DNA of 54,498 nt from Hydnum rufescens UP504 (Eukaryota; Basidiomycota; Agaricomycetes; Cantharellales; Hydnaceae), in assembly GCA_014904985.1 (NCBI GenBank), contig MU129113.1, positions 3,263 to 57,760 of the forward strand, in the 5' to 3' direction. This document shows positions 4,644 through 54,060 of the stretch, piece by piece (positions within the stretch are counted from its first letter, which is position 1; each line of letters opens with the position of its first letter). Both the position numbers and the translations under genes were made by a program. Below the pieces are notes generated by a model, which worked only from the letters and a program-made list of their open reading frames with translations, was not told where the DNA came from and did not search any database.

Positions 4644-4806
4644 CTACTATCATACATGATGTATCCCCCCTGTCTCCCCCCATGTTTTTATTCAGTGGGG
4701 TCGCGGGTTTTCAGTCAGCGGGTTTATGAATGGCGGTTGCAGGTTTTGGGACCAGGGGGAGGGGGACCCGTTGGAGTAGGTGTAGGCTGTGGGGTCAGAA
4801 GAATAC

Positions 4807-14778: not shown

Positions 14779-15328
14779 AGCTGTACTGAGTAGTGTGGCC
14801 CCTCGTAAGAGTGGTTGACTGGCGGGATGTAGGAGGGGTCCATATCATGCATCGATCTATTCGGTGTTTAAATGTGTTGTTTGGGCTTTGGTTCCGAGTC
14901 CCTGTGGCCTTGAATTCAGGTTTTTCTGGCCGTGCTCGCTGTAGTTCCCTTTATAAATCTGGTTACATGTTTTGGTTCTGAGGGGTCTTCGTGGTGGTGG
15001 ACAGTCTCTAACCGATCCGACAATCACGCATGTAAGCTACAGGACGATCCGACAGCACTGCATGGCTCAAGGCCTGCCGATAAAATGGTCCTCTCCTATC
15101 GTTTGATTTCCTTTCGTCGCCCACCCCATGAGGCAGTTAGAGGTGCGTAGACCTCAGTCGATCCTTCGCTTCCTCCAATGAGAATGGATTATATATAGCT
15201 CGGATTTCCCGACTTCCTATTAAGTTTTCCTCTAACAGCGTGCAGGTTATACAGTAAATTATTTGATTGTGCTCATGGTATTGGATAACTTGCCTCGCAT
15301 CGCTTTCAAGCTCATTTTCTCAGATTCG
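14779..15328. other. Intergenic spacer between genes B and C
   Basis: No gene seen. It repeats the A-B spacer: a TTTTGGTTCTGAGGGGTCTT block, an ACAATCACGCATGTAAGCTA block, and a short 5' flank leading into TTGGATAACTTGCCTCGCAT, which is also present before gene B. Consistent with unequal duplication of a unit of about 3.7 kb. Confidence 0.6.
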
Positions 15329-18300
15329 ATGTTGTCCAGATTCTGGAAAACTTCAAGACACAGGGACCCAACGCCATCACCCCAACCTAGCGATTCCATT
15401 CCTTCTAGATCCACGCCCACCGCCCAACCCATCAGCCCAGATCTCCCAGCCAGATCCCAGCCAACCTATCCAGACTCCCCCAACGATCACACCGGGTCCG
15501 AATGGAATTCTGCGCTCGCTGTGGCTTCGATCCGAGTCCATATTCCTGCCCTACCAGGGGCACTAGTTGGACCAGTAACTCAAATAGTCGATGTCTTGAC
15601 GGAGATAAGTGAGGCCATTAAAACCATGCGCGATGGAAGAGAGGGATGCGCGCACCTTATATCGCGGGTCATGAACTTTCTCCAGCTCTTTGTGGAGGAC
15701 TTGAGGGGGAGCAATGTTCCAGTCCCTGATGGATCGCCGACCGCTGTGAGACTGTTTGCTTTAAAGAGGTGTGTTTCTTCCAATCTTTGTTCGTTCTATC
15801 TTTTTAGGCCGTCAGATTCATCTGTTTGTCTGTCAGCAACTTGAAGGCAATCAAAGCCGATGTAATGCGTTGGTCTGACCTGGGCCTGCTGGATAGGTAT
15901 GTCAGGCGTGATGAGGTCAACACTGGACTGTTGAGGCACGGAGAGAATTTGACGGATTGCTTGAACATGCTGCATGTGAGTGTCTATTCAACGTTCACAT
16001 TCTTGTGAAGGCAGAGTTTCCCTGATAGTGTCATGAAGCTGGTGGCGTCTGTGAGAATATCCAATCTCGCGGACAAAATAGAAACAATAGTGTTTCCTGG
16101 TGCATCTGTCTTACTAAGTCGGAAAGAGGATGGAGAGGGTCTATCGCCATCCTCACCTGGGGCTGCGCCGTCAGCACCGCCGCCACCGGCACCGCCGTCA
16201 CCACCATCATCAGCACCACCATCGTTGACTTCGCAGAGCCTTCACAGTCTCTTCCAGCGTCCAGCTGGTCAGGCAATGTTCGAGCAGATTGGTGTCGCTG
16301 TGCAAGCTCGCCTGGAAGCAGTGGGATTACAGGCGACTCCGACGCTCCCTGGCACAAGGTACTTACCGTTCTTGAGCCCACTACCTGGTTACGCTCATGG
16401 AGAACCGACAGATCTTCAGCGGTGACTGTCCTGCAAACTGGGCATAACCGCCGTGTTTCATACCTCGCCATGCAGATCTCTCAGCTTACGGTGAAAGTGG
16501 ACACTGTCGTATCAGATCTTGCCGTCCCCACCGAAATCCAACAGCGATCTATAGGATGGAGAGGGGACTGGCCACAGAACGAGGATCCGGCCCCCAACTC
16601 CACGAAACGGTGTCCACCACATTGGAGCTTTTGAACGAGTTGAATAATATTGCGCAAGCCGAACTCGACGTGGCTACCCTGGCAGACAAAATGAGTCGAT
16701 TGTCATTGAATTTGTCTGACTTGGGTCTTTCGGATGAGGCCTTTGAGGTGCAGAGTACCGCAGTTGGTCTGCACCGGGAGGGACAAGACGTATCAGGCCT
16801 GGCTGCTTCTCTCACCGAGCTTTCCAAGGCCCTTTTACTTCTTGGCCGCCACGATGAGGCCCTCCCCAGGGCCGAGGAAGCCATACGCCTTTACCTCTCG
16901 CTAGTAGCAGATCGACAGGATATTTTCCGCTCAGATCGTGCCTGTTCGTTCATCACCCTGTCTGCTTGCCGTTCGGAATGTGATCTCGATAGGGAAGCCC
17001 TGACAGCAACTGAACGGGCTGTGGATATTTACCGCTCACTAGCAACCGAACAGCCAGATGCATTCCACCCACACCTTGCTCGCAGCCTTGAGAATCATTT
17101 TATTGATCTTTCTCAATTTGACCGCGATGAGGAAGCGCTCAAGGCGATTGAGGAGGCCGTGAGTATTTACAGACAGTTGGTGGCGCGTCGACCCAATATA
17201 TTCCGCCCATATCTCGCGTCCTCTCTTAACGAACTCTCCATTCACCTCTCGAAATCTGGCCGCCACTCGGAAGCACTTGGGGCAACTGAGGAAGCATTGA
17301 ACATTCACCGTCCCCTAGCGGCGGGTCGACCGAATGTATTCCATCCATATCTCGCTCGCTCTCTTGAGCACTTCTCCACTGATCTTTCTCAATTTGACCG
17401 CGATGAGGAAGCACTCAAGGCGATTGAAGAGGCCGTGGGCATTTACCGGCGGCTGGCGGCATATCGACCCAGCGTGTTCCGCCCATATCTCGCTTCCTCT
17501 CTTAACAAGCTCTCCGTCCGCCTCTCGGAATCTGACCGCCATGTGGAAGCACTTGCGGCAACGGAGGAAGCATTGAACATTTATCGCCCACTAGTGGTGG
17601 ATCGACCGAACACATTCGATTCATATCTTGCTCGCTCTCTTGACCACTTCTCCAGTGATCTTTCTCATTTTGACCGCGATGAGGAAGCACTCAAGGCGAT
17701 AGAGGAGGCCGTGAGCATTTACCGGCGGCTGGTGGCGTATCGACCCAACAAGTATCGCCCATATCTCGCTTCCTGTCTTAACAAGCTCTCCGTTCGCCTC
17801 TCGGACTGTGGTCACCATGTGAAAGCACTCGGGGCAACTGAGGAAGCATTGAACATTTACCGTCCACTGGCAGCAGGTCAACCGAATGCATTCCATCCAA
17901 AGCTTGCTCTTTCTCTTACACACTTCTCCATTGATCTTTCTCAATTTGGCCGCCATGAGGAAGCGCTCAAGGCAATCGAGGAGGCTGTGGGCATTTATCG
18001 CCCACTGGTGACGGATGAACCAGATCAATTTCTTCCACCCTTTGCCCATTCTCTCGGCCGGCTCTCTGTATGTCTCTCAATATTTGGCCGTCACACGGAG
18101 GCACTTGAGACGAATGAGGAGGCCATGAACATATACCGCTCACTGGCAGCTAGTCGACCCAATGCATTCTGGCCAAGACTTGCCCACTGTCTCAGCGATA
18201 CCTCCCTTCGTCTTTCGGCCCTTGGCCGCTATGAAGAAGCACTTGGCATCCATTGAGGAAGCTGCGAACATTTACCGCCTGCTTATGGTGGATCAACCCA

Positions 18301-18557
18301 GAGCTTTCAATGCCAGCCTAGCACGCTCACTCTCCAACCTCTTTGACATTCTGTCTAATCTTGATCGTATCCCTGAGGCTCTTCCGGTAATTGAAGAAAC
18401 AGTGAACTTGTTGCGACCCCTCGCGGCAAGGCGCCCTGACATCTTTGCTAAGACTTTTGCATCTGCACTGTCCAGGCTTTCACGGTGCTATTCAGACATG
18501 GGACAGCACAGAGAAGCATTGCAAGCCCAGATGGAAGTGGACGGCCTTGGCTTATAG
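15329..18557 (+). pseudogene. Gene C: helical-bundle/TPR paralog with two frameshifts
   Basis: Start at the conserved MLSRFWK. Introns 15769-15836, 15976-16014 and 16359-16411 (53 nt). In this copy the third intron is one base shorter, and splicing it restores the frame, which supports the intron. The coding part then has a one-base loss near 16587-16590 relative to B, and a one-base gain near 18245-18252 that ends the frame at 18256 while the last repeats continue to 18557. The domain order is as in B: Pro/Ser leader, helical bundle, Ala/Pro linker and 12 TPR repeats ending in the conserved MGQHREALQAQ region. Probably a pseudogene, unless the two indels are sequencing errors. Confidence 0.72.
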
Positions 18558-19338
18558 AGCTGTACTGAGTAGTGTGGCCCCTCATAGAGTGGTTGACTGA
18601 CGGAGCTGTAGGATGGATCCATATCGATATCATACCGATCGCTCTATTCGGTGTTTGAATGAGTGTTGTCTGGGATTCAGATTTCTTTGGCTGTGCGTGT
18701 AGCTTCCGTTATAGGTCTGGGTACATGTTGTTCTGTGTCTTTGTGGTGGTGCACGGTATCTAACCGATCCGACAATCGCGTATGTAAGCTACAGACGATC
18801 GATAGCGCCGCATGGCTCAACGATTAGGAGTCACGAAAGGGATCCTCCCGATAAAAAATGGTGCCTGTACACATTCCTTTCATCCTCTTCTATCGTTTAA
18901 TTTCCTCTAGGCGCCTACCACCCTGGTTCCTGAGGGCAGTCGTCGTTTGAAAAAAAAAAAAAACAAAGAAGAAAGGTTCACCCGTTTACCCCGCTCTTCA
19001 TCCGATCCAAACGGACTTGTTCCTTTTCGGTGCGCATCATCAATTGTAAAGGGTTCTCGTCGTAGGACCGAACAGGCGAGATATCCCGCACCTCTCCCGA
19101 TGAATCGACGAGTTACGCGCCTCTCTCGTCTCTCATTCAGTAGGACCCTAAATACATACATGATCACGACGCTGGCGCAGGCTCGTTCCTTGTTCCTTGG
19201 CGACGTGACCGGAAGCGCATTCATTGTCCATCTGTTAAGGGTCGGTCGTAGTACGGGAGGTGATCACGTGATCAGGCCGAGTACGAAGGAAGCCTTAATA
19301 TAACGGTACCGGCGGCAAGCGCCAATCCCCGACTCTAA
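18558..19338. other. Intergenic region downstream of gene C
   Basis: No gene seen. The first 250 bases repeat the 3'-flank block of A and B. There is a poly-A run at 18948-18962. A perfect 14-bp palindrome with a CACGTG core (TGATCACGTGATCA, 19261-19274) could be an E-box-like site, but nothing functional lies clearly downstream. Confidence 0.5.
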
Positions 19339-19422
19339 AGCCATTGGGACGGTCCGATGTCAAAATTATTTCGGGCATTGCTAACTCGATAACGTCGATC
19401 TTCGCTTTAAGCTCAGATACCC
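19339..19422 (+). repeat. Direct repeat flanking kinase relic, left copy
   Basis: About 84 bp beginning AGCCATTGGGACGG and ending TTTAAGCTCAGATAC. It matches 20094-20177 in the same orientation, diverged but colinear (both contain AACTCGATAACGT). It brackets the kinase fragment and suggests a local tandem duplication. Confidence 0.55.
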
Positions 19423-20143
19423 AAGAAATCCTCTCCCCTTAATCTCGACAAGGAAGAAGGTGCCTATGGAGTACTGCTCTGTGGTCCTTATCTCGTCATT
19501 CGCAAGCTTGGTTGGGGCCACTTTAACATCGTGTGGGTTGTAAATGATTGACGGTAACAAGACCATTAACCACCGCTTCCCTCAACTGCCACACTAACGA
19601 CGCGTCGCTTTGAACAGTGCCAACGTGCATGTGGCTCTCAAGTGGTCAAGTCCTTCGCCCAAGTACGCACAGACCGCGCATGATGAGATCGCTCTCCTTA
19701 ACCAGATCAGCAATATCCTGAACCCGAATCATCCCGGCCGTGCGCATTTGGTACAATTTCTTAACTCGTTCGAGCTTAAGCCAGACGACGGCATTCCTGG
19801 GTCATCCACCATACATGTGACCGACTACCGACATGTTTGCATGATATTTGAGCCCCTTGGGGGGGATGTGCTTACCTTCGGTGCTTACCACTGGTGCGAC
19901 GAGACCAATCTCAAAAGGGTATCCATATTGTGCTCGTCCAGTAAATCACACGTTAAATGTGACAAGGACTCGAGTTCTTGCATCAAGACTGCCAGCTCAT
20001 ACACATGGACCTCAAGCCGGAGAACGTCATGGTTGTCGTGGACGACGTCAAGGAACTTGTCGGTGAAGATCACGCAGTCCGAGAGTTGGTTTTAGCCATT
20101 GGAACGGCTGATATGTTGGGTCTACCGCTCGGGCGTTGGTAAC
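19408..20143 (+). pseudogene. SRPK-like serine/threonine kinase pseudogene fragment
   Basis: Conceptual translation in several frames shows SRPK kinase landmarks in order: a glycine-loop region IRKLGWGHFNIVW (about 19510-19545), a TGA in frame, a probable 64-nt intron ending CTTTGAACAG before HVALK (the VAIK-type lysine, about 19630), AHDEIALLNQI, VCMIFEPLGGDV, then, after a frame change, QGLEFLHQDCQLIHMDLKPEN (catalytic loop HxDxKPEN, about 19965-20030) and VVDDV. Three stops (19942-19980 region) separate the N-lobe from the catalytic loop, and the C-lobe is missing. Related kinases act on SR splicing factors. This copy cannot be functional as it stands. Confidence 0.75.
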
Positions 20144-20177
20144 TCGATAACGTTAATCTCCGCTGTAAGCTCAGATA
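20094..20177 (+). repeat. Direct repeat flanking kinase relic, right copy
   Basis: Right partner of 19339-19422. It starts AGCCATTGGAACGG and ends GTAAGCTCAGATAT. The sequence between the copies is the kinase pseudogene. Confidence 0.55.
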
Positions 20178-20448
20178 TTTGGCAGCAAGACAGATGCGAA
20201 TTACAGTGGCAGATCTGAGCCAATTTGCGTTGCACATCGGTCTCTGCGTCGACCAGATCTCGTATACCCTCTGCCTCTGTCACGTCGATCCGGCCGCTCT
20301 CGAATGCCCAGCGAGTAAATTCACCGGGCTCGGCAGGACGGGGGGTGGGTGTGTGTGGCGGGGCGGAGAGGACGACAGAGGTAACAGCACGGCCCGAGTG
20401 GACGTGTCATTCGAGGACGTTACGCAAAGTATACGTATTAGGGGCTAG

Positions 20449-21220
20449 TTATGCATTGTATACCGCCGGTAAATGTACATGCAGTGGTCGTTTGTATGAG
20501 AGATGAGAGGAAGACGAACCATGAAAGAATACGGCCATTCCGTTGTCCAGGACTTCCCGAGTTTCAGGATGAATGACCATGCACCTGAACAGTATCGGGA
20601 CGTGTTTGTGCAGAGCTGTCGAAAAGGCGAAACAAGCATTGAAGTCCACACGTCGCACACGTACGAACCCGAGATGCATATCACACCGATTCCACCTCGA
20701 CCTGGAGGAGTCGCCAGAACATATATCGTATCCCGCCCAGAGGGACTGGGTGGAAGATGTGCTCTTGATGCGGGGGTGAGAAGAGGAAGAGGAAGTGGGG
20801 GACATTGGACGGTAAGATGTAGATGGGAAGGGTTCGGGCTCGCGGTCCTCGTCGAGAGTGTTGCTGAAATGACGATCGGGGCTGGATCTCCAGAGGATGA
20901 TTGGGTACGTTCGAAGCAGAGGCGTAGAGGTCAGCGGCAGAGGCTGGCATCGTACGGTGTATTGGCGCTGAAGTTCCGAGATAGCCTGCGGAAACACGAA
21001 GATATGGCGATTTGAGGGTATCAGCACCGTAGGATCGATGGTGCGAGCCCCTCGTGTAAGAATTTTGGGTGGAAGTGCAGGAAAGGGCCGTCATCGAGTT
21101 GGCGGTAGAGAAGGCATGCAGCTTAGTGGCAGTAGCATTACTACTGGAAGAAAGCGCGCGGTCCTCTGCATTCCAGCTGTCGGGATCACTGTTCGCCATT
21201 GGAAGAAAACAGCCTAGCAC
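20449..21220 (-). CDS. Possible Ser-rich hypothetical gene
   Basis: Two overlapping minus-strand frames are open. One runs 21220-20681 (Ser/Thr-rich, beginning MLGCFLPMANSD). The other runs 21027-20449 and its second half looks protein-like (SSPDRHFSNTLDEDREPEP, then a basic stretch, then VIHPETREVLDNG). A spliced gene moving from the first frame to the second is conceivable, but I could not fix a splice pair. A plus-strand frame over 20503-21015 is also open, so composition alone may explain all of them. No family recognised. Confidence 0.25.
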
Positions 21221-22632
21221 CGCAAATGCCCGAATGGGCGCTTAAGCTGAAAGGACGAACAAGGTTCCTAGCAAATATCGGGCTGCCCGTTCCTCTGAGG
21301 TACTATTTTCTTTGTGGATGACAGGACAACACCCCATAGCAGTCGGAAACAGCACTGTACGGAGACAGACCAGGAACTGAACCACGTATGATACACCCAA
21401 TCCCTTCACGGCAAGGACTATTGGCCTTGATTAGAACAAGCACATCAGTACATGGGAGTGGGTGCATAATAGCCAAGCTCATGTCTTCCGAAGTGGTCCC
21501 GCGAAATCCCCAGACCGCACTAGGTCAGTCAGATCCCCAGATTCCGTAGACCATCTCGCGGCGGCCATGGAGACCTGCTGCTGACTTGGTTCAGATGTTT
21601 TGAGCGCAATAACGAGGGACGGATTGTGCGTAGAGACAATCACTAATCATTCGAAATTGTGGCTGGCAGGTTGCGATCGTTACGCGATGTGGTAAGGTCG
21701 ATTTATTCGCTTAGGTGGAGTCCTGAGGCAATCGCATCGTCACTAGTGAGGAAATGGGTACTTTTTTGAGCCAAATGAAGCCTGGATCAACCAGATAGGG
21801 CGTACATCCATTTTTTGTTTGAGAGGCATCCGGCCCAAATAGGAATTCGATAGTGTTGTACCGGCGAGATTGGACGAGCACTTGTACTGTACCGTCGCAA
21901 GAATATGCTATTGAAGACGCCAAGGGACTGGTCCGCGGGAATCAAATATGAGAGACCAAATTCGACAACCAAAGCAATATGCACCGGGACGGGGGAAGGG
22001 AGGGCGTCAACTTGGACGGAGAGCGCACCCGTAATCAGGCACACATTCCATATGTCTATTTCAAAGGCAACACACACAAACCGAAGAATTGGGTAGACAA
22101 ATGCCCTTATAATGGTCATAACTTTCTGTATCCAATGACGAAGCCGGAACGAAAGCGATAAACCTAGTCCAGGATGTAGTAGAATAACAGTCGGAGCTGG
22201 AGAATGGAGGCATGCCCGGAAGGCCGCGTACAGGCCGTTTTCAATAACCAGAGAGGCGACCACTAGGCGCAACATCATCCGTCATCGGTTGAAATGTTCT
22301 GGTTACTCAGAAGTACGGGTGGAGCCGAAGTTGCACTGCCATGGAAGCACAGCCATGGACGCACAGCCATGGACGCACAGCCATGGACACACAGCCATGG
22401 AAAAAATTCCCAAATAAGGAGATTTTCGTATCACATGACGACAAAATTCCCGCTAGAACCCTCTCTTACTTACGTAAGAGTCGGGGATCAGCTGTAACGT
22501 GACGTGACTCCACTCGCTTATCTAACTGTGAATCTGAGCTGCGCCCGCAGCCACCGACATTCAAATATTACACCATTATGGAATCTAATCTTTGGTTGTG
22601 TGTTACTTGACGACTTTTAGGTGCACTAGTAT
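21221..22632. other. Intergenic region upstream of gene D
   Basis: No gene seen; the short open frames on both strands lack any coherent domain. It contains the 14-bp tandem repeat at 22339-22400. The ACTTTTAG at about 22613-22620 is probably the end of a 5'-UTR intron of gene D. Confidence 0.5.
22339..22400. repeat. 14-bp tandem repeat, about 4.4 copies
   Basis: The unit CCATGGACGCACAG (first copy with AAG, fourth with ACA) is repeated head to tail. It lies about 230 bp upstream of gene D, with no other structure around it. Confidence 0.85.
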
Positions 22633-25600
22633 GTGCTGAGGCGTCATCTTCGAAGCCTCCTGTCTCTCGAGTCCACGACGTTCCATGCCGCCCACACAAG
22701 TAGACGATTCTGGAAACGTCCAGGACCCAGAGACCCATCGCCACCACCCCAACCTAGCGATTCCATCCTTTCGGTATCCACCTCCACCTTCACCGCTCAA
22801 CGCACCAGTCCTGGCCATGCAAGCAGATTTCAGCCAACCTATTCTCCGACTCCAACATATCCAGGTTACCTCCACGATCACGCTGGCTCCAGTGCTCTGG
22901 TTTCAATTCGACTCCGCATTCCTGCCCTACCGGGGGCATTAGTAGGCCCTGTGACTCAAGTCCTTGATGTCTTAGCGGAGATAAGTGAGGTCGTTAAAAC
23001 CATGCGCGACGGAAAAAGGGACTGCGACCACCTTCTATTCCGCGTCACGATGTTTCTTGACTCCTTTGTGAATGAGCTGAAAGCGAGCAATGTTCCAATC
23101 CCTGATGGTTCGCTGACCGCTGTGAGACTGTTTGCTTTAAAAAGGTGTGTTTCTCACTACAATCTTTACGCCCTTTTTTTTCTAGGAGCTTACACCAAGG
23201 ATTTTTTTTTTTTCTCTTCTGCCAGCAACTTGAAAGCAATCAAAACCGATGTAAAGCGTTGGTCTGAATTTGGCCTGCTGGATAGGTATCTAAAGCGTGA
23301 TGAAATCAAGACTGGACTATTGATGCATGGAGAGAATTTGACGGATTGCTTGAACATCCACCATGTGAGTGTCTATTCAACGTTATTCTTCTGAAGCCAG
23401 AGGTTCCCTGATACTATCATCAAGCTCATGGCGTCTGTGAGAACATCAAACCTCGCGGACAGCATAGAACAAATAGTGTTTCCTGGTCCATCTGTGTTAG
23501 TAACTCAGAGAGAGGAGGGAGAGCCAGCACCGTCAGCACCGCAAACGGCGACTTTGCAGAACCTTCAAGACTTCCTCCAGCGTCCGGCGGGTCGGGTGGT
23601 CTTCGAGCAGATTGCGGAGGCTTTGCGGGACCGCCTGGAAGAGGCGGAATTAGGGACAATCCTGACGCGGACTGGCCCAAGGTATCTACCACTCTTGATC
23701 CAAGTACCTCATTGCGCTCATCCACTACCAAACAGATCTCCCGCGATGACTTTAGTGCAAACCGGACATAACCACCCTATTTCATATCTCACCACCCGGA
23801 TCTCTGAGCTTAGGGTGGAAGTGGACAGTATCCTACCGGATCTTGCTGTTCCCACCGAAACCCAAGAACGGTCTATAGGATGGAGAAGTGACTGGCCGCA
23901 GAGCGAAGATCCGGCACACCAACTCGGCGAAACGGTGTCCATCACATTGGAGCTTTTGAACGAGTTGCATAATACTGCGGAGGCCAAACTCAACGTGGCT
24001 ACCCTGGCAGACAAAATGAGCCAATTATCATTGAATTTGTCCGACTTGGGGCTTTGGGATGAGGCCTTTGAGGTGCAGACCACCGCAGTTATCCTGCACC
24101 GGGCGGGACAAGACGTATCAGGCCTCGCCGCTTCTCTCACCGAGCTTTCTAGAGTTCTGTTGCGCCTTGGCCGCCACGATGAGGCCCTCCGCGAAGCCGA
24201 GGAAGCCACACGCCTCTACCTCTCACTAGTAGCAGGTCGACCGGAGATATTCCGCCCAGATCTTGCCTCTTCCTTCATCGCCCTGTCTGCTTGTCGTTCG
24301 GAATGCGGTCTCCATGAGGACGCGCTCACGGCAATTGAACAAGCTGTGGGCACTTATCGCTCACTGGTAACAAAAGAACCAGATGTATTCCGTCCACACC
24401 TCGCTCGTAGCCTTGAGAATCTTTCCATTTGTCTTTTGGAACTTGGGCACCGCAAGAAAGGGCTCGAGGTGATTTTGGAGGCTGTGAGAATTTACCGGCG
24501 GCTGGCGGCATACCGACCCAATATGTTCCGCCCATACCTCGCTCGCTCTCTTAACAACCTCTCTGCTCGCCTCTCGGAATCTGGCCGCCATGTAGAAGCA
24601 CTTGGGACAAGTGAGGAAGCCTTGACCATCCACCGTCCACTAGCAGCATATCGACCAAATGTCTTCCGTCCCCATCTTGCTGGCTCTCTCGACATCCTTT
24701 CTACCAATCTTTCTCAATTAGGCCGTCATAAGGAAGCCCTCGAGGCGAGTGAGGAGGCTGTGAGCATTTATCGCCCGCTGGCAGCAGATCGACCGAATGT
24801 ATTTCGGGCCAATTTTGCTCGCTCTGTTCATAATTTCGCTGCCCGTCTCTCCGAATTTGGTCGCCGAAAGGAAGCCCTGCAGAATATCGAGGAGGCCGTG
24901 AGTATCTATCGCCCACTAGCGGTCGATCGCCCGGATGTATTTCGGTCACTTCTTGCTCTCTCTCTTGGCGACCTCTCCATTCGTCTTTCAGGCTTTGGCC
25001 GCCGCGAGGAGGCACTGAAGGCATCTGAGGAGGTTGTGGGCATTTATCGCTTGCTAGCAGCTGATCGGCCAGAAGCATTCCGTTCCGATCTCGCTCGTTC
25101 ACTCGGAAACTTTTCCATGTGCCTCTCGAAACTTGGCTGGCATCATAAAGCACTCAGGGCGAGTGAGGAGGCTCTGGAGATCTACCGCCCGTTGGCAATG
25201 GATCTGCCCGATGTATTCCTCCCAGATCTTGCTCACTGCCTTCGTAACCTCTCAGGTAATCTTACCCAATTTGGCCGACGTGAGGAAGCACTCAGGGCAA
25301 ATGAAGAGGCTGTGAACATTTACCGCCCGCTCGTAGCAGATCGACCGGTATTCCGGTCAGATTTCGCCGACTCTCTTCGCAGCCTCTCCGCTCGCCTTTC
25401 AGAGATTGGGCGCTGCGAGGAGGCCCTTATTGCAACTAAGGAAGCCCTGGGTATTTATCGCCCACTAGCAACAGATCGACCAGATGTATTCCGTCCCGAT
25501 CTCGCTCGTTCTCTGGGCAACTTCTCTGTCTATCTTTCTGAATTTGGTCGCCATCGAGAAGCACTAGAGGCATGTGAGGAGGCCGTGAATATTTACCGTC

Positions 25601-26550
25601 CGTTGGCTGTGGAACTACCCGATGCGTTTCGCCCAGATCTGGCTCACTCTATTGGTAATCTGTCTGGAGGCCTTTCAGAATTTGGCCGCTATGCAGATGC
25701 ACTGGACGCAAGTGAGGAGGCGATAGGAATTTACCGTTCATTGGCAAAGGATTGGCCGGATGTATTCCGTCCAGATCTTGCCCGTTGTCTAGGCAACCTC
25801 TCTGTCTCTCTTTCAAAATTTGACCGCCATGAGGAAGCGGTCAAGGCGAGCGAGGAGTCCGTGGGGCATTATCGACTACTGGCGGTGGATCGACCGGATG
25901 TGTTTCGGCCAGATCTCGCCAACTCTCTGGGCAACCTCTCTGTGTTCCTTTCAAAAATTGGCGACAGTCAAGCAGCCCTCAAAGCGAGTGAGGAGACAGT
26001 GAGCGTTTACCGCCCACTAGCAGAGGATCGACCAGATGTCTTTCGTCCACACCTCGCCCGCTCTCTCGGTAACCTCTCTGTTCATCTCTCTCGATTTGGG
26101 CGTGACAAGGATGCACTCGAGAAGAATGAGGAGGCGGTGGACATATACCGCCCGCTTGTGGCAAATCGACCCGATGTATTCCACCCAAGTCTCGCCAACT
26201 CCCTCAGGAATATCTCCCTTCATCTTATGAAACTTGAGCGCTATGAGGAAGCATTGGGTCGCATCGAAGAAGCCGTGGACATCTACTGCCTGCTTGCGGC
26301 GGATCGACCTAGTGTCTTCATTTCTGACCTACAACGCTCGCGCTCCACCTCCTCCGAAATAAGTGCACATCGGGCTCGTCGGGTGATTCAAAACCGTCCC
26401 GACTTTGCTACGTCGTTCGAATTTGGCGTTGCACATGCATATGAGGCTCCTACCCCGATGAGTGAGACAGAGGAGGGTGTTTATAGACGTGTAGTACAGC
26501 ATTACCGTAGTTCGAGTCGCAGAGTACTCACTAACTCCAACAGATTATGA
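22633..26550 (+). CDS. Gene D: helical-bundle/TPR protein, longest open paralog
   Basis: Start at the in-frame ATG 22633. The MLSRRFWK start of A-C is changed to HTSRRFWK here. Introns 23145-23225, 23365-23400 (36 nt) and 23682-23735. The coding sequence is then open to 26550. Order: short leader, Pro/Ser-rich stretch, helical bundle from PALPGALVGP, a shorter linker than in A-C, and 16 TPR repeats of 46 residues. Repeat 9 lacks one residue (DRPVFRSDF) exactly as in gene A, which marks A and D as sisters. From about 26335 the last repeat and the QHEEALRAQ tail of A are replaced by an unrelated Ser/Arg-rich end, so the C-terminus may be damaged although open. No nucleotide-binding domain. A protein-protein scaffold or immune-type function is inferred. 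Confidence 0.8.
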
Positions 26551-34274: not shown

Positions 34275-34947
34275 TATGGATGCTGCAGTTCAGGTTTAAA
34301 CCTGTGGAACCTGAGTTTAAACCTGAACCTGACCCAGGTCAGGTTCCATTGGGGTCAGGTTTCATTCATTTTCTTCAGGTCAGGTTCAGGTTTTGCCCTT
34401 GCCCTGAATCCAAAAACCGGTCTGAAACCAGGTTTAAACCTGAACCTGAAAGGTAGGGTGTAGGTTCCATTCCATGTAAATTGACCACTATTCTGGCACC
34501 AAATCTGGCAATTTACACATGTGACTATAGTTCTGGAGTCAGAAGTCACATGACTTGGCCATTAAATGAGGTAATTGGTGCAGGTCACAAGTCACATGAC
34601 AGAATGTAGTGACTAAATACCATCTCCAGAAGATGTGTGAGCAATAAATTGAAGTGAAAGGGGGCTAGGAAGGAGATGTGGATCTAAAGCAGGATGTAAA
34701 GGGAGTGGCAGAGGCAGAGACTTGAGGAGAGGGTGTAGATATTCTGTAGTACCCCTGAAAATGTTAGCTTCCCTCATACCTCAGGTTTCAGGTTTAAACC
34801 AGGTTTAAACCAGAACCTGACCTGAATGAGACCGAACCTCAGGTCAGGTTCAGGTTTTGCCCTCATGGGTGATTTTGGAACCTGGTCAGGTTTAGGTTTT
34901 GCCCAAATTGGGCAAAACCTGACCAAAACCTGACCGTGGCAACCATA
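34275..34947. mobile_element. hAT-type MITE, copy 1 (673 bp), inside coding exon
   Basis: The ends are TATGGATGCTGCAG and, read inward from the right, TATGGTTGCCACGG. Perfect 8-bp target duplications ATCCTGAT lie at 34267-34274 and 34948-34955. The interior is non-coding and dominated by repeats of CAGGTTTAAACCTG, a palindrome, and CCTGAACCTGACC. It interrupts the split gene after CKDQD. The copy at 39011-39680 is in opposite orientation. Confidence 0.9.
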
Positions 34948-35995: not shown

Positions 35996-36002
35996 CGACA
36001 TC
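35996..36002. repeat. Target-site duplication of foldback element, left
   Basis: CGACATC, identical to 43069-43075. Joining the flanks with one copy keeps the host frame (CGVDV then EDSQTF). Confidence 0.85.
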
Positions 36003-36157
36003 CAGGCTGGTCAGTCACAGGGGGGACCTAATTTAGGTACCACTTTCGGGGCAGAAAATGGTACCTAATAGGTCCCCCAGACCTTATGGCCGAAATCGGG
36101 CAATTTCAATTCAGTTTTTGGGCCATCTGTCGGCCAATCCATGGCTGTGCTAGATTA

Positions 36158-36190
36158 TTTATTATTATTATTATTATTACTACTATTATT
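36158..36190. repeat. (TTA)n tract near left tip of foldback element
   Basis: A TTATTATTATTATTACTAC run at the same relative position as the 4621-4643 tract of array 1, directly outside the first hairpin unit. Confidence 0.6.
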
Positions 36191-36477
36191 ATATACATAT
36201 TATCCCCCCTGGGGTCTGCCACCACAGGGGGGGGGGGGCATGGTTCCTGTGGGTCATGCACCTGCATATACCCACCACACCTGCCGCAGCGGGTGGGGTT
36301 CATATGCCCCGGTGGGGGCTGGTTCCATTTGTGTGCTCCCTCAAGGGAGCGGGTTTTCATTTGTTGTCCTTCATTTGTTCATGTGTAACCGGGCATGGGG
36401 TTTCATTGGGGTCCTGGCATCCGCAGGTTTGTGCTCGTGGCTGCGTATCTTCATGCATTGGGGTGGGGCATCTTGAC

Positions 36478-38790
36478 CTAGAATAGTAAATATGTTAATT
36501 AAAAATTAAAACTCACGCAAGAAGAGCAGTGACTGCTGCTCTTCTTGCGCGGTTGTAGCTATTAAAAACAATATACCTTATATGGCCACACACCCACTGC
36601 AGTGGGTGTGTGGCTCATCCACCCATGTTGGGGGCCTGGGCTCCGGTCCCTTGAGGGGGCATTGTCGAAGGCCCTGTTTGTGGGGTTGTTTGTGGCTTTT
36701 GTTCATGGCGTGTTCATGGATTCGTGGTGGGCTGGGCTTGGGTTCTAGTCTAGGATCTAAAGAAACCAATATTAAGTTAGTTAGACATCAATGCAGTGCA
36801 AAAAGAGCAGCTCACGCTGCTCTTTTTGCACCACAAGAATAAAAATAAAACAAAAAAACAAAACTAACCTTGTAGTACCCTGCACCTGCCACAGCGGGTG
36901 CGGGGTACTGGGGCCGTGTACTCCGGGCTCGTTTGTAGGGCGGTTTGCATGGATCCCCATCATTCGGGTGTGGACAGGCGGGCTGCTGGGGTTTTTGCGT
37001 CCACATTCGTTCGCGTGGGAAGGGATAACCTACAATACAATGTTATATGTTAGTTAAAAGTTAAACACCACGCAAAAGAGCAGCTTTCGCTGCTCTTTTT
37101 GCGCAGGTGTAGCTACTGGGGGGCGGGACTCACCTTGAATAGTACCACACCCACCGTGGCAGGTGTGTGGTACCTGGGGTCCGGCGCGTGTTGTGTTGGC
37201 GTGTTGTTGGCGCGTGTTGTGTTGGCGCGTGTTGTGTTGGCGCGTGTTGTGTTGGCGCGTGTTGTGTTGGCGCGTGTTGTGTTGGCGCGTGTTGTGTTGG
37301 CGCGTGTTGGTTGCGCGTGTTGTGTTGGCGCGTGTTGTGTTGGCGCGTGTTGTTTGGCGGCGTGTTGTGTGGCGCGTGTTGTGTTGGCGCGTGTTGTGTT
37401 GGCGCGTGTTGTGTTGCGGTGTTGTTGGCGCGGTTGTGTGTGGCGGTGTTGTGTTCGGCGCGTGTTGGTCGTTGGCGCGTGTGGTGTTTGGCGAGTGTTG
37501 TGTGTGCGCGTTGTGTCGTTTGGCGATGTTGTTTGTTGGCGCGTGTTGTGTTGGCGCAGTGTGTGTTCTGTTTGCGCGTGTTGGGTTCGGCGCGGTTGTG
37601 GTTGCGCGTGTTGTTGTGTTGGCGCGTGTTGTGTTGGCGCTTTGTTTGGGCGTTTTTGTTGGCGCGTGTGTGTTGGCGCGTGTTGTGTTGGCGCGTTTGT
37701 GTTGGCTCGTTGTTGGTTGCGCGCGTTGTTGTGTTGGCGCGTGTTGTGTTGGCGGTGTTGTGTTGCGGTTGTGTTGGCCGTGTTGTGTTGGGCTGTGTTT
37801 GGCGCGTGTTGTGTTGGCGCGTGTTGTGTTGGCGGTTGTTGCCGTGTTGTGTTGGCGCGTGTGGTTGGCGGTTTGTGTTGGCGCGTGTTGTGTTGGCGCG
37901 TGTTGTGTTGGCGCGTGTTGTGTTGGCGGCTGTTGTTGTGTGGGCGTGTTGTGTTGGCGTGTTGTGGTTGCCGTGTTGTGTTGGCGCGTTGTTGTGTTGG
38001 CCGGCTGTGTGTGTGTTGGCGCGTGTTGTGTTGGCGCGTGTTGTTGCGCGTGTTTGTGTTGGCGCGTGTTGTGTTGGCGCGTGTTGTGTTGGCGCGTGTT
38101 GTGTTGGCGCGTGTTGTGTTTGGCGTGGTGTGTGTTGGCGCGTGTTGGGTTGGCGGTTTTTTGTGCGCGTCTGTGTTGGCGCGTGTTGTGTTGGCGCGTG
38201 TTGTGTTGGCGCGTGTTGTGTTGCGCTTGTTGTGTTGGGCGGTGTGTGTTGTTGCGCGTGTTGTGTTGGCGCGTGTTGTGTTGGCGTGCTTGTTTGTTGG
38301 CGCGTGTTGTGTTGGCCGCGTGTTGTGTTGGCGCGTTTTGTTGGCGCGTGTTGTGTTGGCGCGTGTTGTGTTGGCGCGTGTGTGGTTGGCGGTGTTGTGT
38401 TGGCGCGTGGTTGTGTTGGCGCGTGTTGTGTTGGCGCGTGTTGTGTTGGCGCGTGTCTGGTGTTGGCGCGTTTGTTTGGGGTGTTGTTTGGCGCGTGTTG
38501 TGTTGCGCGTGTTGTGTTGGCGGTGTGTGTTGGCGCGTTTGTGTTGCGCGTGTGGGGCGGTTGTGGTTGGGCGTGTCACGTTGCTGTGCGTCGCATTGCC
38601 ATCTGATCCCTTGTTGTTTTGTGGGCTTCTGTCGTACCCTGGACAAGTCAACCTAGAATAATAAATGAATCATTAGCATAAAATTCAAAGCAATGCAAAA
38701 AGAGCAGCTTTCGCTGCTCTTTTTGCACCATTGTATCTACTAAAAAAACACTCACCTTGTGACCACACACCCACAACAGCAGGTGTGTGG
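36478..38790 (-). repeat. Hairpin/intron array, left arm (four units, minus orientation)
   Basis: On the minus strand the intron-like segments are 38755-38653, 37133-37030, 36868-36757 and 36576-36478 (99-112 nt). Their donors are GTGAGT, GTGAGT, GTTAGT and GTATAT. CTAAC lies upstream of the TAG acceptor in several. Each holds an S stem (GCAAAAAGAGCAGC type). H stems (CACACACCC..GGGTGTGTGG) lie at about 38762-38791, 37143-37171, 36881-36910 and 36585-36613, just upstream of each donor; a further H-like stem at about 36275-36300 has no intron after it. The spacer 37134-38652 is enlarged by the 15-bp minisatellite. Confidence 0.75.
37183..38575. repeat. 15-bp GC-rich minisatellite, about 90 copies
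   Basis: The unit TTGGCGCGTGTTGTG is repeated head to tail over 1.39 kb with frequent one- and two-base losses and point changes. It starts right after an H stem and fills what is otherwise a 150-250 nt spacer between two intron-like segments. The right arm has no counterpart. Because 15 is divisible by three and the unit lacks stops on both strands, very long open frames appear in most reading frames; they are not genes. The array is full of CpG while the surrounding DNA is CpG-poor. Confidence 0.92.
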
Positions 38791-38849
38791 TCATGTGGTT
38801 GCCTTTCCAGGTGGTTGCCTGTTGTGGTTGTGGAGATGTGGAAGGAGAT

Positions 38850-40165
38850 GCCAACTCAATGCCAGCAACTGCCGGGAGTTAAAAAGCGCCCAAGTGCCGT
38901 GCTACAGCAAAATCCATATTAATAGCAAGTACCTAGATGTGAAATAAATACTATATAATATATATTTGTCCAAAAATGTGAAGATGACAATAATAAGTCA
39001 GAGCTCAAACTATGGTTGCCATGGTCAGGTTTTGGTCAGGTTTGCCAATTTGGGCAAAACCTAAACCTGACCAGGTTCCAAAATCACCCATGAGGCAAAA
39101 CCTGAACCTGACCTGAGGTTCAGTCTCATTCAGGTCAGGTTCAGGTTAAACCTGGTTTAAACCTGAAACCTGAGGTATGAGGGAAGCCAACATTTTCAGG
39201 GGGTACTACAGAAGATCTACACCCTCTGCTCAAGTCTCTGCCTCTGCCACTCCCTTTACATCCTGCTTTAGATCCACATCTCCTTCCAACCCCCTTTCAC
39301 TTCAATTTACTGTTCACACATCTTCTGGAGATGGTATTTAGTCACTACATTCTGTCATGTGACTTGTGACCTGCACCAATTACCTCACTTGATGGCCAAG
39401 TCATGTGACTTCTGACTCCAGAACTATAGTCACATGTGTAAATTGCCAGATTTGGTGCCAGAATAGTGGTCAATTTACATGGAATGGAACCTACACCCTA
39501 CCTTTCAGGTTCAGGTTTAAACCTGGCTTCAGACCAGTTTTTGGATTCAGGGCAAGGGCAAAACCTGAACCTGACCTGAAGAAAATGAAATGAAACCTGA
39601 CCCCAATGGAACCTGACCTGGGTCAGGTTCAGGTTTAAACTCAGGTTCCACAGGTTTAAACCTGAACTGCAGCATCCATAGCTCAAACAAGGCATGATAT
39701 GCCTAATTGAGAATGGACTGGGCCACTTCTATGAGTCATAATTGGCCCAAATTAAAATATAATAATATTAAATGGGTACCCCCACATGGGCGACTAGTTA
39801 TATTGGACGATTCTGGCACTTTTTAATTTTTCACGCCTTCAATTCCCTAAATAGGGAATTGAAGGCATGAAAAATTAAAAAGTGCCAGAATCGTCCAATA
39901 TAACTAGTCGCCCATGTGGGGGTACCCATTTAATATTATTATATTTTAATTTGGGCCAATTATGACTCATAGAAGTGCCCAGTCCATTCTCAATTAGGCA
40001 TATCATGCCTTGTTTGAGCTCTGACTTATTATCGTCATCTTCTTTGCATTTTTGGACAAATATATATTATATAGTATTTATTTCATGTCTAGGTACTTGC
40101 TATTAATATGGATTTTGCCTGTAGCATGGCACTTGGGCACTTTTAACTCCCGGCAATTGCCGGCA
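38850..40165. repeat. Central palindrome of the foldback element
   Basis: The symmetry point lies between 39850 and 39851 inside AATTCCCTAAATAGGGAATT. About 170 bases on each side (to GAGCTCAAAC / GTTTGAGCTC) are almost identical with one visible one-base indel. Beyond that the match resumes on the other side of the MITE (38850-39010 against 40017-40165, ending near CTCCCGGCA). The high identity of the core suggests a young fold or ongoing arm-to-arm conversion. Confidence 0.9.
39011..39680. mobile_element. hAT-type MITE, copy 2 (670 bp), in left palindrome arm
   Basis: The ends are TATGGTTGCCATGG and, read inward from the right, TATGGATGCTGCAG. Perfect 8-bp target duplications GCTCAAAC lie at 39003-39010 and 39681-39688. 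The right palindrome arm preserves the empty site (one GTTTGAGC), which proves the insertion came after the palindrome formed. Close relative of 34275-34947. Confidence 0.92.
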
Positions 40166-40220
40166 TTGAATTGTGCAACTACGCAGCCACACCCAGCAAC
40201 AGCCCAGAAAGGTGACCACA

Positions 40221-42255
40221 TGACCACACACCTGCAACAGCGGGTGTGTGGTCATAAGGTGAGTTTCTTTTTTAGTATATAATATGGCACAAAAAGAGTA
40301 GCAAAGGCTACTCTTTTTGCATTGCTTTGAGGTCTTGTACTAACATGGTTTTGAGTATTTTAGATTATGGTCTGAGGCCCGGGATGAAAACCCACCACAC
40401 AACGAGGGGCTGCACAGCAAGAACAAAACCAAAACAAACAACAGACCACCCAATGGGTGGCCCCAGGAACCACACACCCGCCACAGTGGGTGTGTGGTAC
40501 GATTTAAGGTGAGTTCCCCCCCCTCCAATCGATACTGTAGCACAAAAAGAGCAGCAAAAGCTGCTCTTTTTGCACTGCATTAAACTTCATCACTAACACC
40601 CTTTATTATTATTTTAGGTCCTAGCCCTGGGTCCAGGTGACAAACGATGAGACCCCACCAGAGCCCCCATGGCAACACGCCAAACGAAGCCCCCCAAAAC
40701 AGAATGACACCAAACAAAGGCCTGAGAGGTGGCAACACGAACCACACACCTGCTGTGGCAGGTGTGTGGTTCTATATAAGGTAAGTAAGGCTGTACACCC
40801 TCAATGGCACAAAAAGAGCAGCGAATGCTGCTCTTTTTGTGCTGGTTTTAATTCTCTAACTAATACATCTATTATTCTAGGCTATCGCTATAAATGAAGA
40901 CCCGTGAAACAACCCCCCCCCTGAAATGATGACCCGTCGAAACCCATGACGATGATGCGTGGAACGAAGACATGAAGCAACGCCAGAACCCGCATGAACC
41001 ACACATCCGCTATGGCAGGTGTGTGGTTCTATACAAGGTAAGTAACGTCATGTACCCACAATGGCATAAAAAGAGCAGCAGATGCTGCTCTTTTTACGCT
41101 GGTTTTAATTTTTTACTAACACATTATTTATTATACTAGGTTATCGCCTTACTACCAACAGCAAAATGAAGACCCACCAAAGGAACCGCCCCCGGTGGAA
41201 ATGACAACGCCCTGGCCAAACAAAAACCAACAACACGACCCACCAAAGCAATGAGTGCCGAACGAAACCCACCAACAATGACCGGCCAATGATCACCCAC
41301 CAAATGAAACCCCCAAACAAGAACATATGGTGCAAGACCATGGGACCCAACGAACCACACACCTGTGGAAGTGGGTGTGTGGTAATTTTAAGGTAAGTAA
41401 TATCTAGGTATAAATGTGATTGCCCCAAAGGAGCAGCATAAGCTGCTCCTTTGGCGCAGCTTCTTTTTTCTTTTTTACTAACATGTTATTTATTTATTAT
41501 CCTGATTTCTAGGTTCTCATCTGAACCCATGACCCCCACCAACCCCCCTAACCATGACAACTCACCACACCCAACCAGTGAACTGAGGAGTGAAACCAGG
41601 CCAGACCACACACCCACTGTGGTGGGTGTGTGGTCATCTAAGGTGAGTCCTGTTCCCCATAGATATAGTGGCACAAAAAGAGCAGCGACAGCTGCTCTTT
41701 TTGTGTCACTTTTAACTTTTTACTAATCTAAATTTTTTCTTCTAGATCTCGCTCCCCCTCAATGAGTACATGCCTGAAAACCCCCCAACCTGCCCTGTAT
41801 GAAAATCTGACAGTGGGAGGTACATGGCTGCAGGCCAAAATGAGTACCATACACCCGCCAAAGCAGGTGTGTGGTACCATAGGTATTTTTTTTTAATTTT
41901 TTACACATACAGCGACGCAAAAGGAGCAGCACAAGCTGCTCCTTTTGCGTCACTTCAAATTTTTTTTTTATACTAATGTATGCTATCATTCTAGGATTGA
42001 ATCCGAAGCTCCCAAAACAATGACCCGCACAACCAAGCCATGCCCCCCCAAATGGCCACCAATGAGCCAGGCGAACGCCTGTCCGAGTCCCCAAGGCAGC
42101 AATGCCTGGTACCACACACCCCCCTCAGCGGGGGTGTGTGGTACAGAAGGTCTTTTTTTTGTTTCCGTTTAGCAGGTGGCATAGAAAGAGCAGCAGGAGT
42201 TGCTCTTTCTGTGCTACTTTTTGTTCAGAGCTAACATATCTTTTATTTATCCTAG
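40221..42255 (+). repeat. Hairpin/intron array, right arm (eight units, plus orientation)
   Basis: Intron-like segments: 40259-40363, 40509-40617, 40781-40880, 41038-41139, 41393-41512, 41643-41745, 41883-41994 and 42150-42255 (100-120 nt). The donors are GTGAGT or GTAAGT in the first six and weaken to GTATTT and GTCTTT in the last two. CTAAC or CTAAT precedes the TAG acceptors. H stems lie 8-12 nt before each donor, for example 40741-40770 and 41605-41634; S stems lie inside each intron. Spacers start with words like GTTATCGCC, GCTATCGC and GTTCTCATCTGAAC and contain no long reading frame. Confidence 0.78.
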
Positions 42256-42341
42256 GTTATCATGTAACAGATGCCGCCCACAACATCCCCCCCCTTTGAC
42301 CCTTTGAAAACCAGCCGAACCTGATGAAGTGATGGAAGGCA

Positions 42342-42711
42342 CCACACACCCACCCTAGTGGGTGTGTGGTGCTACTAAGTGCTTTTTTTTAAAAAAATTT
42401 CTACAGATGGCACCACACACCCACCCTAGTGGGTGTGGTGCTACTAAGTACTTTTTTTTTTTGATTTCTATGGATGGCACCACACCGCTATGGCAGGTGT
42501 GGTCCTAAGTACTTTTTTTTTTGGATTTCTATGGATGGTACCACACACCTGCCCTGGCGGGTGTGTGGTGCTACTAACTACTAAGTACTTTTTATTTTTT
42601 GATTTATATAGACAGTACCACACACCTGCCCTAGCGGGTGTGTGGTGCTACTAAGTTGTTTTTTTTTTTGAGATCTACGGATGGTACCACACCCACTAGG
42701 CTGTGTGGTAT
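42342..42711 (+). repeat. Six bare H hairpins in tandem, period about 68 bp
   Basis: Copies of ACCACACACCC..GGGTGTGTGGT start near 42342, 42411, 42478, 42540, 42617 and 42686. Each is followed by GCTACTAAGT, a T-rich run and GATTTCTATGGATG. The S stem and the donor-to-acceptor segment are missing. This looks like a collapsed edge of the array; the last copy is shortened. Confidence 0.8.
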
Positions 42712-43068
42712 GTTTTTTTTAAATTGAATTTTTGAATAAATAAATAAACAAGAATAAGAATGAAACATCAGACTGCCCTGCTGACCTGGGGCAGTATATG
42801 TATAATATAGCAATAATAAACAAATAATTATAAATGGAATATATTATCCCCGGTAGGGCCATTATGGCCTGCTGCAAGTCTGAGACTCTAAGTCCCAGTT
42901 TCAGCCAATTTTCAGCCAATTTTTGGCCATTTCGGCCAATTCTGGGCCAGCAAGTGAAATCATAAAAATGGCCATTTTGGCTGGAATAGTGATGGGACCT
43001 ACTTAGGTACCATTATCTGCCCCAGAAGTGGTACCTAACTAGGTAGGCTTAGATGACTGACCAAGGTG
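42712..43068. other. Right terminal part of foldback element
   Basis: AT-rich with AATAAATAAATAAAC, then repeated CAGCCAATTTT and TTTGGCCA words, then the inverted GGTACC block that pairs with 36020-36080. No gene. Confidence 0.6.
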
Positions 43069-43075
43069 CGACATC
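43069..43075. repeat. Target-site duplication of foldback element, right
   Basis: CGACATC, partner of 35996-36002. Confidence 0.85.
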
Positions 43076-43844: not shown

Positions 43845-44340
43845 ACGACACGAAGTGTAGCTCGAAGTTGATTGAGACGGACTGGAGAGACCGCAAAAAC
43901 GCGTGAAAACCAATGGAAAACTGCACGACTTCACGAGCGATGGAGCGAGATCGAATAAAAACTCCTGCTAACGGAAAGCCACGACACAGAGTGTAGCCCG
44001 ACGTATAGCTCGAAGTTGACTGAGATGGATTGGGGAGATCACGAAAACGCGTAAAAAAAATGATGGAGAATTTGTGGACCTGACGAGCGATAGGGCGAGA
44101 TCAAATAGCAACTCCTGCTGACGGAAAGCCACGACACGAAGTGTAGCCCGACGTCTAGCCTGAAGTTGATTAAGATGGATTGGAGAGACCACGCGTGAAA
44201 AGCGATGGAAAAACCGTGACCTGGTGAGCGATAGGACGAGACCGAATAACAACTCCTGCCGACGGAAAGCCGCAACACGAAGTGCAGCCCGACGTCTAGC
44301 TCGAAGTTGATTAAGATGGACTGGAGAGACCCCAAAAACG
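43845..44340 (-). repeat. Inverted subterminal repeat cluster, left (four copies)
   Basis: Four copies at about 130-150 bp spacing of a unit containing AACTCCTGC, AAAGCCACGACACGAAGTG, TAGCCCGACGT, GAAGTTGATT, GATGGA(C/T)TGG and AGAGACC. The same unit is present in the opposite orientation at 53385-54060. The copies begin close to the 3' end of the Ulp1-type gene and lie upstream of the split MARTK gene. Confidence 0.8.
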
Positions 44341-53384: not shown

Positions 53385-54060
53385 CCACATTTTCGCGGTC
53401 TCTCCAATTCATCTCAATCAACTTCAAGCTAGACGTCGGGCTACACTTCGTGTCGTGGCTTTCCGTCGGCAGGAGTTGGTATTTGATCTTGCCCTATCGT
53501 TCTCCATTTTGTTTCACGCGTTTTTGCGGTCTCTCCAATCCATCTCCATCAACTTCGGGCTGGACGTCGGGCTACACTTCGTGTTGTGGCTTTCCGTCGG
53601 CAGGAGTTGCTATTTGATCTCACCCTATCCCTCACTGGGTCTCACACTTTTCACACGGTTTCGCGCTCTCTCCAATCCGTCTCAATCAACTTTGAGCTAG
53701 ACGTCGGGCTGCACTTCGTGTCGTGGCTTTCCGTCGGCAGGAGTTGCTATTTGATCTCGCCCTATCGCTTGCCAGGTCCACAAATTCTCCATCATTTTTT
53801 TTTCACGCGTTTTAGTGTTCTCTCCAATCCGTCTCAATCAACTTCGAGCTAGACGTCGGGCTACACTTCGTGTTGTTGGTTTTCCGTCGGCAGGAGTTTT
53901 ATTCGATCTCGCCCCATCGCTCACCAACTCGCACAGTTTTTCCATTGCTTTTCGCACGCTTTGCAGTCTCTCCAATCCATCTCAATCAACTTTGAGTTAG
54001 ACGTCGGGCTACACTTGCTGTCGTGGCTTCTCGTCTTCGGGAGTTGTTTGACCTCACCGT
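53385..54060 (+). repeat. Inverted subterminal repeat cluster, right (five copies)
   Basis: Copies start near 53400, 53531, 53668, 53820 and 53967. Each contains CTCTCCAAT(C/T)C(A/G)TCTC, AACTT(C/T)GAGCTAGACGTCG, GGCTACACTTCGTGT and TTTCCGTCGGCAGGAGTT. It is the reverse complement of the 43845-44340 unit, and array length and spacing are similar. Open frames here, ending again and again in SNPSQSTLS, are products of the repeat. Confidence 0.82.

Follow-up and report, generated by a model that had tools for sequence, protein, structure and literature searches.

A non-autonomous DNA transposon tends to be regarded as a pair of passive ends with filler between them. Among described systems, Kyakuja and the other fungal transposons of the Kyakuja-Dileera-Zisupton (KDZ) group are some of the closest to the element reported here. 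The sections of Kojima 2025 drawn on here give two Kyakuja families with 7-base-pair (bp) target duplications, CA...TG ends and no inverted repeats, and 8-bp duplications for Zisupton (PMC12730594); the words Hydnum and Cantharellales are absent from the main text of that paper. The present element lies in a stretch of 54,498 nucleotides (nt) of the basidiomycete Hydnum rufescens UP504 (GenBank assembly GCA_014904985.1, contig MU129113.1, positions 3,263 to 57,760, forward strand), referred to below as the window, and its filler resembles two RNA genes. From its sequence we judge it, on balance, to be a foldback-like transposon of KDZ type that is non-autonomous and carries two divergent units, predicted to be transcribed and spliced into structured non-coding RNA.

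A sequence-only reading of the window had described 12 repeated units at 36-42 kb and five elsewhere, each consisting of a hairpin (H), a 5' splice donor, a second hairpin (S) within an intron-like segment, a branch site and an acceptor, in that order. When 17 units cut by hand from the window were made into a profile, a search of the window with it gave 17 matches of at least 45 bits, five at 4805-6186 (minus strand), four at 36475-38792 (minus) and eight at 40222-42258 (plus), and the order of the parts is confirmed in the profile units. The seeds were picked by their S hairpins, which makes the count in the window partly circular; the genome-wide counts are not. Beyond the earlier description, the two arrays at 36-42 kb point outward from a shared palindromic centre and are contained in one bounded element of 7,066 bp (36003-43068), which encloses all 12 units, has CA...TG ends and is flanked by a perfect 7-bp target duplication, CGACATC. 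Long inverted arms of tandem subrepeats round a centre are what makes it foldback-like. Its parts are:

35996-36002, unstranded: left target site duplication CGACATC (comparison of element ends)
36003-36017, plus strand: left element end, CAGGCTGGTCAGTCA (end comparison)
36154-36192, minus strand: (ATT)n tract, read as the TAA-rich outer tail of the left arm
36475-38792, minus strand: left arm, four units of hairpin, donor and S intron, leftward (profile search)
36475-36615, 36754-36908, 37027-37173 and 38650-38792, minus strand: the left-arm units
37183-38553, minus strand: 15-bp tandem repeat of about 94 copies, which expands one left-arm exon
38793-40221, unstranded: palindromic centre, predicted bidirectional promoter with a TATA-like block
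38907-38996/40029-40118 and 39721-39849/39852-39980: inverted pairs of the centre
39094-39680, unstranded: second repeat, rich in AACCTGACC, inserted in the centre, with an inverted copy at 34275-34861
40222-42258, plus strand: right arm, eight units, rightward (profile search)
40222-40366, 40467-40620, 40739-40883 and 40996-41142, plus strand: right-arm units 1-4
41352-41502, 41604-41747, 41844-41996 and 42109-42258, plus strand: right-arm units 5-8
42332-42692, plus strand: outer H-type hairpins without S introns, with a period of about 69 nt
43054-43068, minus strand: right element end, reverse complement CACCTTGGTCAGTCA, matching the left end in 12 of 15 letters
43069-43075, unstranded: right target site duplication CGACATC (end comparison)

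The 15-bp repeat at 37183-38553 is nearly T-free on its sense strand and open in all six frames. These six frames are among the 12 of at least 100 codons in the element; eight of the 12, three of them from this repeat, were scanned against Pfam and gave no match. The two copies of the AACCTGACC-rich repeat, inverted with respect to each other, are 88-100% identical by piece.

The units belong to a large family. In the 63.2 Mb of genome searched (539 contigs, with the window inside contig C205), the exact S hairpin, AAAAAGAGCAGC-loop-GCTGCTCTTTTT, occurs at 2,349 places and the reversed pattern at 0. Donors of the form AAGGTRAGT stand 10-39 nt before the S arm in 1,111 cases, compared with 0 for the same donor reversed, and exact copies of the end motif CAGGCTGGTCAGNCA number 691, against none for its reversed control. 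Since 86 exact S hairpins accompany 219 units in the sampled loci, about 6,000 units are estimated genome-wide, a rough figure because most loci were chosen for their arrays; as a rough extrapolation, the family may comprise perhaps 600 elements and 6,000 introns.

The geometry of the units is regular. The donor GT is present in 17 of 17 units of the seed alignment, and the full GTRAGT in 12 of them. Units scoring at least 45 bits number 192, and 172 of these were parsed for spacing: H lies 4-11 nt from the donor in 149, and a branch site and an acceptor are present in 145, with introns of 99-115 nt in 108 of the 145 and a branch-to-acceptor distance whose mode is 24 nt. Over 167 introns, the median length is 104 nt, or 67 nt without S, and the donor is 83 nt from the branch A, or 46 nt without S.

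The back-to-back arrangement recurs as well. Among 24 unit-bearing stretches (window included), 15 show a switch from minus to plus units across 0.4-1.4 kb, with 17 centres in total; the nine stretches without a centre have units in a single orientation only, such as the neighbours L005 (minus) and L006 (plus). Six plus-to-minus changes were seen, five between neighbouring arrays and one from a spurious short match in L015, where a 90-bp automatic centre was also dropped as spurious. Each of the 17 centres pairs with itself, its arms being 88-99% identical over 346-846 paired columns, whereas centres of different elements have a median identity of 81.5% (range 73-97%; pairs with more than 300 aligned columns among 136). 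In most copies, therefore, the two halves are more alike than the copies are to each other.

The order of units also matches between regions. This was analyzed for 171 units from the window and other array regions; loci L039 and L040 entered later counts only. Of 40 first units, 35 have the first unit of some other region as their best match; a same-ordinal best match is found for 18 of 35 second units, 16 of 28 third units and 11 of 24 fourth units, with little order further out. The best match lies in another region for 133 of the 171 units, and is the next unit of the same row for 20. This ordinal matching indicates that the inner units descend mostly in place and that tandem duplication has also contributed.

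Splice sites are retained in copies that are 14-17% divergent from each other. In 84 directed pairs of same-ordinal units drawn from this set, the donor GT is retained in 77 of 78 cases, compared with 198/370 for GT elsewhere in exons and 119/206 in introns, and the acceptor AG in 71 of 72, compared with 575/820 and 120/168, respectively; the background retention of the same dinucleotides is 54-58% for GT and 70-71% for AG. The longer signals behave similarly, GTRAGT being kept in 48 of 56 cases (any intron 6-mer, 311/687) and the branch motif CTAAY in 60 of 67 (any intron 5-mer, 342/689); occurrences of CTAAY elsewhere (11/14 kept in exons, 0/3 in introns) are too few to use. Earlier estimates of donor, branch and acceptor divergence were set aside, because only sites labelled alike in both copies had been counted, which biased them. 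Donor scores are lower the further a unit lies from the centre (Spearman -0.365, p = 9e-7, n = 171), as is expected if transcription starts there.

The stems of both hairpins carry two-sided changes: among 96 clusters, S pair 8 has changed from A-T to G-C in 20, S pair 12 from A-T to C-G in 16, and H pair 10 from A-T to C-G in 18. Strand asymmetry was used to separate selection on RNA from selection on DNA. In the H stem, outside the CpG pairs, G-U mismatches outnumber A-C mismatches by 35:10 (clustered 23:10, p = 0.035). S hairpins are more stable in the sense orientation (97 more, 73 less, p = 3e-4; clusters 50:35, p = 0.008).

The loops are likewise oriented. GNRA and UNCG are stable RNA tetraloops, and among 158 four-nucleotide S loops 52 are GNRA when read in sense and one when read in antisense, where loop composition predicts 13. 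Loops of the form ANAA are consistent with decay of a CpG that the closing C makes with the G of the loop; GNRA plus ANAA amount to 93 in sense and 2 in antisense. For UNCG, the 171 H loops give 30 sense and 6 antisense cases (3.0 expected). By cluster, the sense and antisense figures are 23 and 1 of 84 for GNRA, and 24 and 5 of 88 for UNCG. Genome-wide, S loops beside an oriented donor are GNRA in 376 cases and its reverse complement in 22. The latter 22 are all TTTC, which is the most frequent loop, GAAA, exactly inverted, and the units that hold them are otherwise ordinary. This points to occasional inversion of hairpin loops in the DNA itself, at a perfect inverted repeat; the RNA-stable orientation still prevails. 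The skew in orientation could stem from common descent with rare inversion, but the second position of GNRA and UNCG is free, which argues for the loop class itself.

The loops and the CpG sites show some further peculiarities. Loop positions in same-ordinal pairs differ at 0.31 (H) and 0.24 (S), compared with 0.14 for aligned exon, and look hypermutable or else reflect inversions. CpG sites of the element (H pairs 2-3, S pairs 14-15 and exon ACG/ATG) decay to TpG/CpA, those of the two stems largely independently; this pattern suggests cytosine methylation of the copies. Exons have an excess of ATG (27 per kb), which may come from decay of ACG to ATG.

Several features resemble those of a transcript. 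The 109 exons are composed of 32% A, 32% C, 23% G and 13% T, and the 145 introns contain 37% T. A ATATTTATTATATAGTATTTATT block is conserved in the 34 centre halves; TATAWA is found in 31 of the 34, a count with no control run for a string common in A/T-rich DNA, and GGCAATTG in 20. Within 800 nt past the last unit, AATAAA is present in the sense orientation in 27 of 34 arms and in antisense in 15 (mean 2.6 vs 0.7). Coding exons were considered and are not favoured, as 28 of the 109 exon lengths are multiples of three and no shared open reading frame (ORF) was seen by eye in 20 joined arms; the starts of the ORF peptides shown from joined arms have no mutual resemblance by eye.

The ends relate the element to KDZ transposons. 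Those of the window element are imperfect 15-bp inverted repeats, and target duplications flank four of five two-ended elements: the window element (CGACATC, 7 bp), L016 (GATGTTC, 7 bp), L008 (GGTTACCA, 8 bp) and L040 (CAAATTCC, 8 bp). In the fifth, L039, both ends were compared and no target duplication was found. With regard to Kyakuja traits, CA...TG ends come with a 7-bp duplication in two elements and with 8 bp in the two others, and the ends are imperfectly inverted. The KDZ domain PF18758 has at least 154 matches in this genome and 0 in 14 control genomes. The three fetched KDZ loci, L035, L036 and L037, each have an end that is the same in its terminal 15 bp and is located about 1.9-2.3 kb beyond the KDZ domain; the end in L036, 1.9 kb from the domain, shares about 100 bp at 76-79% with the ends of array elements in L007, L008, L010, L015 and others. 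The KDZ gene and the nearby end are presumed to form one element. Units are found in two of 13 KDZ loci (L030 and L037), in both cases beyond an element end, and here and there array elements and KDZ elements are nested. The element is accordingly described here as KDZ-type, a class suggested by these sequence features, with no subgroup assigned, and is likely to have been moved by the KDZ transposases of the genome. At position 6369 of L037, an element end near the KDZ gene falls exactly at an array donor, AAGGTGAGTC and then CAGGCTGG, within a unit. Tet_JBP gave one sub-threshold match and none above the cut-off in the genome.

A foldback-like element of KDZ type, its two divergent non-coding units under selection for splicing and for RNA folding, would be the simplest account of what is directly observed, namely the ends with their target duplications, the palindromic centre, the matching unit order, the kept splice signals and stems, and the sense excess of GNRA and UNCG. 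Transcription of each arm would start at the TATA-like block in the centre, the exons would be joined by U2 splicing, and the RNA would end at the AATAAA signals near the element ends. The S hairpin may loop out about 37 nt of the 104-nt intron, so that donor and branch site would act as if about 46 nt apart. Strong promoters, together with an A/C-rich RNA that is untranslated, spliced well and provided with a stable hairpin on each exon, could keep a copy expressed, with its ends open to a transposase acting in trans, and the hairpin-bearing RNA might be protected from turnover or from RNA-triggered silencing. Silencing of transposons via poorly spliced introns is known in a basidiomycete yeast. 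This role of the RNA, whether upkeep of expression and access or escape from turnover or silencing, is the least certain part of the proposal.

A bolder version, which we put forward tentatively and hold to be rather less than probable, is that the element is mobile DNA of a new kind, without a protein gene, with its own RNA genes back to back, and with spliced products that are required for its spread. The products, capped hairpins chained by unstructured A/C-rich linkers, would then serve as an RNA partner, either by holding copies open or by recruiting a KDZ transposase. If the preferred reading of two spliced RNA units is correct, a spliced, structured RNA has arisen and been maintained through selection on a genomic parasite; the family would also provide a very large natural series of similar introns in which to study the influence of exon and intron hairpins on fungal splicing, and would let one ask what a transposon gains from non-coding RNA.

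A number of results weigh against the RNA-based account. The retention pairs share units and are not independent, and the profile by which units were picked includes the splice motifs. G-U is not significantly favoured in the S stem (17:11; clustered 14:11), and with the CpG pairs counted the G-U to A-C ratios become 81:80 for H and 66:42 for S. H hairpins are not more stable in sense (86 more, 64 less, p = 0.34). When CpG decay forms are included, UNCG-type H loops number 72 in sense and also 37 in antisense (9.5 expected). Five of 20 joined arms have a longest ORF above the 95% level of a crude shuffle. As for the class of the transposon, none of the KDZ elements was recovered complete with its two ends and a target duplication.

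The sequence-only reading had offered three interpretations of the units: a spliced non-coding RNA, an introner-like repeat, and a template that exposes hairpins for self-mobilisation. The first appears to be the best supported, given the kept splice sites, the sense-strand tetraloops, the promoter-like centre and the AATAAA ends. An unlikely alternative is a foldback-type element selected at the DNA level, with H and S as tandem binding sites or cruciforms for a transposase and with splice motifs that hitchhike. The arms do consist of tandem units in inverted rows around a palindrome, with conserved stems that change on both sides, and tandem-repeat secondary binding sites for transposase are discussed for Galileo-type subterminal repeats in the parts of PMC3573991 used here. 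The 22 exact S-loop inversions (TTTC for GAAA) are DNA-level hairpin events and count in its favour. With regard to the self-mobilisation idea, such events do exist, though mobility itself is better explained by the KDZ-type ends and the target duplications of 7-8 bp. What selection on DNA leaves unexplained is the near-invariance of GT, CTAAY and AG outside the stems, the direction of the donors (1,111 vs 0), the sense excess of RNA tetraloops, and the presence of T-poor exons beside T-rich introns.

Alternatively, a larger autonomous element may once have had a protein gene of which the introns are the regulatory 5' part, and the arrays would be functionless, multiplied remnants. In its favour, introns raise messenger RNA levels in basidiomycetes, and the donors become poorer in the outer units; this explanation is nonetheless improbable, in view of splice sites kept between copies 14-17% apart, of the 20 joined arms in which no shared ORF was seen, and of the KDZ loci, where units occur in only two of 13 and then beyond an element end. 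That the S intron copies itself into genes as an introner, with the arrays as nurseries, is very improbable. Some 6,000 similar introns, by rough extrapolation, would suit an introner family, and target duplications and inverted ends are reported for some introner families in the sections of PMC9860276 drawn on here. However, the bounded unit is the whole element and not an intron, with ends kilobases outside most introns; the units follow the order of the element, being mostly inherited within the transposon; and the single isolated exact S hairpin that was inspected (L019) adjoins an element end. The introner-like interpretation is thus not supported, although a systematic search of the introns of protein genes was not made. 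Least credible of all is ordinary tandem duplication with chance splice-like motifs and neither transcription nor selection, which is strongly disfavoured by the retention of the splice sites, and also by donor direction and the skew of GNRA loops.

The window holds a second copy of the element, as follows:

4301-6290 (right edge approximate), minus strand: second, truncated element copy
4301 and 4372: end-like motifs of this copy
4805-6186: its five units, leftward, accompanied by part of a centre

To the right of this copy stand three large frames (854, 726 and 1051 amino acids; window 7576-26550) made up of TPR repeats (TPR_10, TPR_12) in tandem. Tandem repeats of 137-152 bp form an inverted pair at window 43851-44340 and 53386-54029, 9-10 kb apart. 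The Rfam scan of the window gave no match at the gathering score, and scans of the window for transfer RNA and transfer-messenger RNA found nothing. The S hairpin was also met in IMG/VR, in four contigs with one S each; these have a near-identical, terminator-like context and no H motif, and were taken as unrelated.

No such element was found in the titles and abstract openings of the literature covered, subscription papers being mostly outside that coverage. Compared with the fungal KDZ transposons, as far as the sections of PMC12730594 used here describe them, the present elements have the same CA...TG ends, with 7-bp duplications in two elements or the 8 bp of Zisupton in two, and the ends of array elements have sequence in common with an end that adjoins one of the KDZ genes here. 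They differ in having no detected KDZ domain, in their palindromic centre and intron arrays, and in their short, imperfect inverted ends, which the two described Kyakuja families are said to lack. With the foldback-like Galileo of Drosophila, as treated in the parts of PMC3573991 consulted, the element shares long, internally repetitive inverted arms with a variable number of units. Galileo belongs to another transposase superfamily, and conserved introns and RNA-type hairpins belong to the present units; the word splicing is absent from the main text of that paper. Introners (PMC9860276, in part) are similar in being repeated introns tied to non-autonomous DNA transposons, but the present introns are arranged in rows within the element, and their boundaries are not the element ends.

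Lastly, multi-intron genes for long non-coding RNA resemble each arm in their promoter-like block, several U2-type introns, AATAAA signals and the lack of any shared ORF seen. In contrast with such genes, the present units exist in hundreds of copies, lie back to back within a transposon, and combine an H hairpin at the exon end with an S hairpin inside the intron.

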